45,667 bases of DNA. It comes from Clostridiales bacterium. GTDB taxonomy: Bacteria; Bacillota; Clostridia; Peptostreptococcales; Acidaminobacteraceae. The DNA is taken from positions 1-45,667 of the forward strand of contig JAIOSU010000044.1 of NCBI GenBank assembly GCA_021107455.1, read 5' to 3'. The position numbers and the translations under genes are program-made. Shown here piece by piece: positions 3,896-5,519 of this stretch. Every line of letters begins with the position of its first letter. Within the stretch, counting starts at the first letter, position 1. The notes under the pieces are model-generated. The model was not told the origin of the DNA and did not search any database. It worked only from the letters and a program-made list of their open reading frames with translations.

Positions 3896-3915
3896 CATAT
3901 GTTATTTATTGATTG

Positions 3916-3945
3916 CCCCGTTTATAAACGGGGTATATTTTTTTT
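3916..3945 (+). terminator. Rho-independent terminator after the PAS-GGDEF-HD-GYP gene
   Basis: A perfect 18-base palindrome CCCCGTTTATAAACGGGG (3916-3933) is followed by TATA and a run of eight T. It lies 20 bases after the stop codon and 46 bases before the peroxiredoxin ribosome binding site. Confidence 0.8.
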
Positions 3946-3961: not shown

Positions 3962-3979
3962 TATTGGAGGTGATTATCT

Positions 3980-4693
3980 ATGCCAACAGATTTCAAGCCC
4001 GGTTGCGCACGTCCGAAATCAACAATTTCTACGACAAACTCGGAAGTGAACAATCACTCAACTGAAACTAAGGAGGTAGTGAACATGATCAAAGTCGGTG
4101 GACCTGCACCAGATTTCGAACTTGCAGGTTATTACAAAGGTGGGTTCAAGAATTTTAAACTTTCGGAATACAAAGGAAAATGGGTCGTCCTCTGTTTTTA
4201 TCCAGGTGACTTCACATTCGTCTGAGCGACTGAAGTATCTGCAGTTGCAGATAGATTCAATGCTTTTCAAGAACTTGATGTCGAAGTTTTATCAGTAAGT
4301 GTGGACAGTATCTTTGTTCACAAAATGTGGAATGATTTCGAATTATCTAAAATGGTTGAGGGTGGGATTCCATTTCCTATGCTCTCCGATGCCGGTGGCG
4401 GCGTAGGTACCCTTTATGGCGTCTATGATTCTGAAGCTGGTGTAGAAAACCGTGGGCGTTTTATTATAGATCCCGATGGCATAATTCAAGGTTATGAAGT
4501 ATTAACACCTCCCGTTGGTAGAAATGTTTCCGAAACAATCAGACAAGTACAGGCATATCAACTCGTTAGAAATTCTGGCGGAACCGAAGCTACACCGTCA
4601 GGTTGGAAACCAGGAAAAACAACTCTCAAACCAGGTCCTGATTTAGTAGGTAACGTCTGGAAAGTATGGAGTGTCAAAGAAGAATACGAATAA
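3980..4693 (+). CDS. Selenocysteine-containing peroxiredoxin (AhpC/Prx family), TGA-recoded
   Basis: Two open frames separated only by TGA at 4223-4225 are in the same frame and join into one peroxiredoxin. Before it lies FYPGDFTFV and after it [11 protein letters not shown], so TGA falls exactly on the peroxidatic cysteine of the PGDFTFVCPTE motif; decoded as selenocysteine, it reduces peroxides. From ATG 3980 the protein has 237 residues with Sec at 82; from ATG 4085, which fits the usual family N-terminus, 202 with Sec at 47. Both ATGs have perfectly spaced GGAGG sites. The 35-residue extension contains one Cys (PGCARP). The C-terminal resolving site, CPAGW in typical 2-Cys enzymes, reads TPSGW, so the short form would be 1-Cys-like. 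Recoding genes (selA, selB, selC, selD) are not in this window. Clostridial selenocysteine peroxiredoxins are known, which supports the reading. Confidence 0.9.
4231..4259 (+). promoter_or_regulatory. SECIS-like stem-loop behind the in-frame TGA
   Basis: TATCTGC (4236-4242), loop AGTT and GCAGATA (4247-4253) form a perfect seven-pair stem, extended by TGAA (4231-4234) with TTCA (4256-4259) across a small internal loop. The loop G at 4244 lies 18 bases after the TGA, inside the distance reported for bacterial SECIS elements, and it occupies an early loop position as expected. It lies wholly within coding sequence, as in bacterial selenoprotein mRNAs. Confidence 0.8.
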
Positions 4694-4695
4694 TA

Positions 4696-4725
4696 AAAAT
4701 AGCTTGGGAAGTCCCAAGCTATTTT
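4696..4725. terminator. Bidirectional terminator between convergent genes
   Basis: AATAGCTTGGGA and TCCCAAGCTATT pair around a two-base loop, with A-rich sequence on one side and T on the other. It lies between the peroxiredoxin stop and the stop of the convergent ABC permease, so it can serve both. Confidence 0.85.
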
Positions 4726-5519
4726 CATGCTCTTAAATCACGTTTATTATAAACGATAAATGTTAAAGCTGTAAATGATATTGCCCAAATAAATGACAAA
4801 ATCAAATAGGTTCCTTCAATGCCATTGTTCTGAAGCAATTTTGAAGCTTCATAGTATTTGAAAGGCGTCACATATTTCAGGAAATCAATTTTATCGCTGA
4901 GTGCGACCAACACAGATAGAACATAAAGTGAAAAGAGTATACCTAACCCTACTCCACTCGACAACTTATATCGTTTTACCGATGATGCCAAAAATAGTCC
5001 CAGACTCAAAAACATGATTTCAAATATCCCGGTTGTCACTGCTACCAACCAAAGAAATCTATAGAAATCTTGATCCGGATTGTATTTTAAAGTGAAAAGA
5101 TAAAGTGATCCAATCACAACAACAAGAACAATCAGACAATTTATAGCTGCTGCAATAATTTTACCAATCAAAATCTTTGTACGAGTAACTGGCATGGTCA
5201 TTAGAAATCCAGCAGTTTTATCACGTTCTTCTTTTGCAATGATGGAATTCCCTAGCAACACTGCAAATATACCCAGCATCAGGTTGACATATACTACAGT
5301 GATACTTACATAACCACTTACTGTTGTAAGATTAGCATTGCTCATACTGAAGGCATCCATCAATGCTTTGGGCATTGAATTCATTATTTGAGCCATATCC
5401 GGATTATTGTAATATGCTGAAAACTCACTGAGCATCATCACAATAACAGCGATGAGGCTTCCACTCCAGATCAGTAGAGATTTTAGATTTGATCTCAATT
5501 CTCTTGCTACTATATTCAT
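4725..5519 (-). CDS. ABC-2 type transporter permease
   Basis: 264 residues with about six hydrophobic segments: one near the N-terminus (about 15-35), a long soluble stretch, then helices near 70-90, 105-130, 140-160, 170-200 and 235-255. The conserved tract around residues 90-115 (IAKEERDKTAGFLMTMPVTR) is the cytoplasmic coupling region typical of ABC-2 permeases. It is the last gene of a three-gene unit, 11 bases after the second permease. With the ATPase it should form an exporter, but the substrate cannot be told. Antibiotic, peptide and lantibiotic self-protection exporters share this layout. Confidence 0.85.
   Translation of the reverse strand: MNIVARELRSNLKSLLIWSGSLIAVIVMMLSEFSAYYNNPDMAQIMNSMPKALMDAFSMSNANLTTVSGYVSITVVYVNLMLGIFAVLLGNSIIAKEERDKTAGFLMTMPVTRTKILIGKIIAAAINCLIVLVVVIGSLYLFTLKYNPDQDFYRFLWLVAVTTGIFEIMFLSLGLFLASSVKRYKLSSGVGLGILFSLYVLSVLVALSDKIDFLKYVTPFKYYEASKLLQNNGIEGTYLILSFIWAISFTALTFIVYNKRDLRA

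Follow-up and report, generated by a model that had tools for sequence, protein, structure and literature searches.

Among the described systems closest to the gene studied here is PrxU of Eubacterium acidaminophilum, which Sohling and colleagues are said to have described in 2001. Reportedly, this protein has 203 residues, was labelled with selenium, carries selenocysteine (Sec) in place of the peroxidatic Cys and has no C-terminal resolving Cys (an Ala is found there). In yeast, the resolving Cys of Ahp1 is near the N-terminus, and this may be a functional parallel to the tailed PrxU proteins considered below. In reviews the PrxU family appears as peroxiredoxins with a TxxU motif (PMC13188914, PMC9312934), and early selenoproteome surveys counted it (PMC1088965, PMC1794560). 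Other papers report PrxU as up-regulated in ore-grown Sulfobacillus thermotolerans (PMC7409299) and give PrxU of Desulfococcus multivorans as two locus tags (PMC5109826).

The window (the whole stretch of DNA that was analysed, 45,667 nt from a Clostridiales bacterium) contains a frame at 3980–4693 on the + strand that would encode 237 residues, including Sec82, and that ends at the TAA stop codon at 4691–4693. There are 81 open codons within 3980–4225 ahead of a TGA (4223–4225, + strand), after which the same frame continues to the TAA, and this TGA is the sole interruption. The UGA codon for Sec82 lies at the peroxidatic position (FTFV-U-ATE) and aligns with the peroxidatic Cys of solved 2-Cys peroxiredoxins (FTFVC). 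Each half of the protein separately matches Pfam AhpC-TSA in register, with profile positions 1–40 before the TGA and 43–122 after it. The preliminary description had claimed that two open frames are joined in phase through this TGA, that the codon falls on the invariant peroxidatic Cys and that both sides are coding, and these results confirm all of it. Scanning the whole window for frame pairs that a single TGA joins, with more than 60 codons per side, gave three: prxU and two others (TGA 30183 and TGA 40184), which are antisense to longer frames.

The joined protein scores 399.1 bits against the NCBIfam model NF040737 (peroxi_PrxU, thioredoxin-dependent peroxiredoxin; cut-off 270). Residues 7–233 match model positions 2–232, which is the whole length including most of the N-terminal tail. 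The second-best NCBIfam match is AhpC (173 bits), and a search of the genome with NF040737 gave the window gene 393 bits. By this sequence match the window gene is prxU, a member of a known Sec peroxiredoxin family, and the selenoprotein reading is an ordinary one because the family is established and has its own NCBI model. Sec at the peroxidatic site is common to the model family and the window gene, and nothing in the match distinguishes the window gene. Thioredoxin-dependent peroxidase activity of PrxU is predicted from the name of the model.

An AF2 monomer model of the window protein, built on an alignment of 48 rows (the window gene plus 47 loci out of the best 80 of 85 from the named-genome scan), has a mean pLDDT of 84, with values below 50 for residues 19–33. 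The top rows of a structure comparison are 2-Cys peroxiredoxins and AhpC, with Z scores of 23–24 over about residues 37–226, and the modelled structure thus has a peroxiredoxin fold. Typical 2-Cys peroxiredoxins and AhpC (among them PDB 1n8j, 3ztl and 5zte, with Z 23.8–24.4 over about residues 37–226) share their fold and active-site context with the window protein. In contrast with these, it has Sec for Cys, an extra N-terminal tail with a Cys and no C-terminal resolving Cys: before P-x-G-W, where typical 2-Cys peroxiredoxins have this Cys, the window gene has Thr205 (4592–4594, + strand). It also differs from PrxU of E. acidaminophilum, whose 203 residues, as reported, correspond to a tail-less form, whereas the window protein carries a tail of 35 residues with a Cys.

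A consensus scan of the region for terminators found two hairpins against 0.9 expected. One lies between the upstream gene and prxU (3914–3935, + strand); the other follows prxU (4693–4728), is near-palindromic and was scored on the − strand. Searches of the window with Rfam, at gathering scores, and with PADLOC gave no match, and a PHROGs search gave one match, of unknown function.

The first set of relatives comprised 121 loci, drawn from 391 genomes of the class, 61 relatives and a scan of named genomes (best 80 of 85), and among them are the window gene itself (L021) and some near-duplicate loci. One locus (L073) is a fragment that begins after the UGA codon, so that 120 of the 121 reach it. 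TGA is present in all 120, the window's own gene included, and also in 73/73 loci of a second set. The second set came from genomes of the order (54/393 over cut-off) and of the phylum (49/398), and some of its further loci are identical to loci of the first set. Searches for the second set were limited to E 1e-70 and could therefore hardly show Cys forms, but the search of the 391 class genomes had no such limit. It gave 14 matches over cut-off, all with TGA (the top of the list is complete), and among the matches listed below cut-off there was one more TGA form (249.9 bits), followed by frames without TGA at 219 bits or less. Tailed forms are over-represented in the first set, since the named-genome scan used the tailed window gene as query.

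Codon comparison of the window gene with a near relative (L074) gave 14 synonymous and 2 non-synonymous differences in the 46 codons for residues 36–81, and 66 synonymous and 8 non-synonymous differences in the 145 codons from residue 93 onward. The 11 codons for residues 82–92, which hold the UGA and the hairpin, have no synonymous and one non-synonymous difference. The tail (residues 1–35) has 8 synonymous and 10 non-synonymous differences in 35 codons and has thus changed fast.

According to one survey, a bacterial SECIS is a hairpin just after the UGA with a small apical loop that holds a G (PMC1088965). The window has such a hairpin at 4236–4253 (+ strand), beginning 10 nt downstream of the UGA, with a stem of 7 bp (4236–4242 with 4247–4253) and an AGUU loop (4243–4246). 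Its energy is mildly unusual (z −1.78; 8 of 200 shuffles were as good). Energy by itself is weak evidence; covariation in relatives decides whether the hairpin is real. By a letter rule that fixes columns 19, 21–24 and 26, the hairpin occurs in the same register in 112/120 loci. Columns 18 and 27, both third codon positions, form Watson–Crick pairs in 98 of 102 distinct sequences and G-U pairs in the other 4, with all four Watson–Crick types seen; the mean after shuffling, which ignores relatedness, was 39.8, and a count of 98 was not attained in any of 10,000 shuffles. Watson–Crick counts were 90/102 for columns 15:30 (shuffled mean 35) and 100/102 for 21:24 (shuffled mean 72), the last being partly set by the letter rule, of which 15:30 and 18:27 are free. 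These three are the largest excesses among 78 third-position pairs. In the second set the counts were 43/51 (15:30), 51/51 (18:27) and 49/51 (21:24). The SECIS-like hairpin of the preliminary description is therefore real. Synonymous differences are absent from the 11 codons from the UGA through the hairpin when the window gene is compared with L074 or with L059, against 66/145 and 61/143, respectively, downstream of the hairpin; two other gene pairs have 2/11 and 1/11 in the UGA-hairpin codons.

The family has two SECIS registers, because the hairpin of a tail-less clade lies about 6 nt further from the UGA (8/120 loci in the first set and 13/66 in the second), and the SECIS of the window gene is nearer to the UGA than in this short clade. 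Tail-less PrxU with a shifted SECIS were seen at L026–L032, L071, L213, L214, L216, L217, L219–L226 and L236.

The genome from which the window comes (333 contigs, 96% complete) was searched with profiles for the Sec machinery. On a single contig (C252) we found selA (573.5 bits; cut-off 268), selB (336.7 bits; cut-off 242), selD (406.6 bits; cut-off 125) and tRNA-Sec (67.3 bits; gathering score 47), all within 10 kb, so that the check for selA, selB, selC and selD proposed in the preliminary description came out positive. In 14 control genomes the cut-off was passed once for selA, twice each for selB and selD and five times for tRNA-Sec. The tRNA-Sec match alone is accordingly the weakest of the four. 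The selD gene itself (L162; 10527–11450 of contig C252 of genome G000) has one in-frame TGA, and its product is for this reason probably also a selenoprotein. A search of the genome for GrdA gave no match, but neither did the same search of the control genomes, so that this negative carries no weight.

Overall, there is strong support from these comparisons for one gene at 3980–4693 in which the UGA at 4223–4225 is read as Sec at the peroxidatic site of a peroxiredoxin. This upholds the interpretation in the preliminary description, which mentioned neither the established NCBI family nor the tail with its Cys nor the predicted internal start. The Sec peroxiredoxin itself is known. Neither the N-terminal tail with its conserved Cys nor the signs of initiation within the gene, both seen in the tailed branch, are described for PrxU in the literature searched, which took in few subscription papers.

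Of the 117 aligned rows, 105 (101 distinct) have an N-terminal tail that continues in phase into the core. Its Cys9 (TGC, 4004–4006, + strand) is Cys in 101/101 distinct long forms, partly by rule, because rows were classed as long if they had a Cys in this part of the sequence; stated without this circularity, none of the 12 rows classed as short shows a complete open tail that lacks the Cys. These 12 rows comprise the short clade of 8, two without a tail (L072 and L146), one whose tail frame is closed by stops (L151) and one in which the stretch is hidden by a run of N (L110). Around Cys9, G8 is found in 92, R11 in 88 and P12 in 97 of the 101, and the remainder of the tail varies in sequence and length. 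Cultured organisms with a tailed PrxU include Syntrophomonas wolfei (L092), Carboxydothermus islandicus (L083) and Thermodesulfovibrio sp. N1 (L084). A further Cys, Cys72 (TGT, 4193–4195, + strand), is in the strand before the active-site loop (residues 68–74 in the model) and is conserved in 101/101 long and 10/12 short rows. Stop codons interrupt the tail frame of L151 (TGA and TAA) and that of L204, and both loci keep an open core that has a start of its own. A Pfam search of two tails at E values up to 10 found no known domain. We also considered the 'GC' of the tail as a lipoprotein signal and rejected it by inspection, the PrxU tail having no hydrophobic signal. The weak family matches L154–L159, which start near the first positions of the model, are by inspection lipobox-like thioredoxin-fold proteins; L160, retrieved together with these, is at the end of a contig and yielded no sequence. 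One of them, the lipoprotein-like L159 (G428:C41), has an in-frame TGA at its active site (WVYWUPSC) and is likely to be another selenoprotein.

Position 205 is Thr in 97 of the 101 long forms, Ala in 2, Ile in 1 and Met in 1, and is never Cys. No C-terminal resolving Cys was seen in the second-set C-termini displayed (that of L227 is cut off). Tail-less PrxU are common: 23 of 66 second-set rows were classed as not tailed, a few of them being cut short (L209 by the contig end). Since the tail-less members displayed also have no C-terminal Cys, resolution inside the protein is not required in the family, and Sec can evidently be reduced without this Cys. Two tail-less sequences differ in this respect. 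L146 (UGA near 2964), a tail-less PrxU inside the tailed branch, has a C-terminal Cys (CPAGW), and L032 has a Cys two residues further on (PCDW). L146 is a candidate for a natural swap: it would agree with an exchange between two resolving Cys, without proving one.

With no C-terminal Cys available for the purpose, resolution of the oxidised Sec may fall to Cys9 in the tail. We put forward Cys9 as a resolving thiol only tentatively, at somewhat less than even confidence. Against this role stand the common tail-less members, of which those displayed have no C-terminal Cys either, and the fast evolution of the tail apart from its motif. The Cys might alternatively serve a reductase as docking or storage site, or have another function.

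The long form has a Shine–Dalgarno (SD) sequence, GGAGG (3966–3970, + strand), ahead of its ATG (3980–3982), and 90 of the 101 long forms have an SD word of at least 5 nt no more than 20 nt from the first start, spacing not being part of this test. A second SD sequence, AAGGAGG, lies inside the gene (4070–4076, + strand) within codons K31-E32-V33 and ends 8 nt upstream of an internal ATG (4085–4087, Met36). Translation from this ATG would give a predicted short form of 202 residues (4085–4693, + strand) that begins at the peroxiredoxin core, near the start of tail-less PrxU. The relatives have similar codons before the core, for Lys-Glu followed by Glu, Val or other residues, which spell AAGGAGG or a shorter form of it, mostly 8 or 11 nt before the Met. 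Exact SD runs of at least 6 nt occur in 76 of 100 distinct tails, where 16.2 are expected from synonymous resampling with the codon use of each locus. SD words of at least 5 nt at proper spacing precede the internal Met in 87/101 and other internal Met in 6/487, the internal site having been given the best of neighbouring Met and the background not; the loci are also related, and such counts are not independent of one another. Glu at column 32 is encoded by GAG in 59 of 65 cases (91%), as against 15–48% of codons ending in G at 21 further conserved Lys/Glu columns, and Lys-Glu pairs in this stretch are AAGGAG in 68/78 cases against 23% (109/467) in open frames of at least 200 codons of the same loci.

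The second set, whose tail rule also admitted one locus with an upstream frame that looks unlike a tail (L208), has an SD before the internal Met in 34/43 members and before other Met in 2/157. The internal Met is missing in 5 of these 43. Across both sets, six tailed members without the Met have GTG (L084, L194 and L234), TTG (L184), CTG (L202) or TGC (L206) there. The three GTG codons stand behind AAGGAGG and the TTG behind AAGGAG; L202 and L206 have no good start at the site. Four of the six thus have GTG or TTG start codons, suggesting that it is initiation that is kept and not methionine as a residue. Most likely, the tailed branch makes two in-frame products, one with and one without the tail.

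We made a tree by a quick method from the core only, with the Sec column blanked and with SH-aLRT support only. The 14 Cys forms in it are fully separate from the 112 PrxU rows (support 100); their C-terminal Cys is present (VCPA), and the part of the sequence displayed holds no tail of this kind. The short clade of 8 forms a group with support 97. Presence of the tail requires five changes by parsimony and is compatible with a single origin. As both the tailed L069 and L070 and the short clade lie near the base, the tail may be old and have been lost in the short clade, or it may have been gained more than once. The record of L112 is titled Bordetella parapertussis, yet its PrxU groups with rows from Planctomycetota and Krumholzibacteriota, and this metagenome bin is probably mislabelled.

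The best explanation as a whole, which we hold with good confidence, is a prxU gene with Sec at the UGA and with two starts in the tailed branch. SelB with Sec-tRNA, guided by the hairpin at 4236–4253, would insert Sec at the UGA (4223–4225), a step that the sequence comparisons strongly favour. By analogy with established peroxiredoxin chemistry, Sec82 would attack peroxide and become a selenenic acid. The mRNA of the tailed branch would have two ribosome-binding sites: the start at 3980 would give a form of 237 residues whose flexible tail carries Cys9, and that at 4085 a 202-residue form without the tail, as selection on the nucleotides suggests. In the long form the tail Cys might then resolve the oxidised Sec as a selenenylsulfide or pass electrons on, which we again suggest with some reserve, and the short form would be a one-Sec enzyme reduced by an outside thiol.

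Part of the internal-start signal could be a relic, because the site lies where tail-less PrxU begin. If so, the same selenoprotein might be made from the start at 3980 only, with the internal SD left over from a time when the core start was the sole start. Tail-less PrxU do begin close to the corresponding position, in most cases behind an SD, and 14 of the 101 tailed members of the first set have no 5-nt SD word there, both of which agree with such a relic. A relic should, however, decay at synonymous positions, yet GAG is kept at column 32 (59/65, against at most 48% at the 21 other columns), runs of at least 6 nt are kept at well over the expected number (76/100 against 16.2) and 4 of the 6 members without Met have GTG or TTG. 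We therefore consider use of the first start alone to be unlikely.

The converse, that only the internal start at 4085 is used and the upstream sequence is a leader whose tail is outside the working enzyme, would agree with the strong SD at the core start, with the stops that close the tail frame before the core in L151 and L204, with the absence of a tail from L146 and L072 and with the fast change of the tail between near relatives. Against it, tail and core share one frame in 101 long rows, G8, Cys9, R11 and P12 are conserved across phyla, the first start has its SD word in 90/101 and the NCBI model includes the tail, and we regard this reading as very improbable. Finally, Cys peroxiredoxins are common lower-scoring relatives, and the TGA might in principle be a sequencing error or a nonsense mutation in one of them. 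Since TGA is kept in every examined relative that reaches the codon (120/120 and 73/73), sequencing error is excluded for practical purposes; purifying selection acts on both sides of the TGA, the SECIS covaries and the genome has the Sec machinery. An ordinary Cys peroxiredoxin with an error was therefore rejected, its probability being negligible. The reading that we prefer remains that of a selenoprotein gene with two starts.

An internal start could make annotation programs differ on where the gene begins. If the second start is real, these genes would clearly show a bacterial selenoprotein whose isoforms are chosen through internal initiation, a widely conserved arrangement with selection at synonymous sites across several phyla. 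As a more speculative possibility, which we think rather doubtful as it stands, tailed PrxU would be dual-start genes that make a mobile Cys-tail form, with the tail as the resolving thiol, and a one-Sec form, and mixed oligomers of the two would tune the reduction of the oxidised Sec. A real second start would also offer a testable answer to how the oxidised Sec is reduced in tailed PrxU, which is without the usual resolving Cys.
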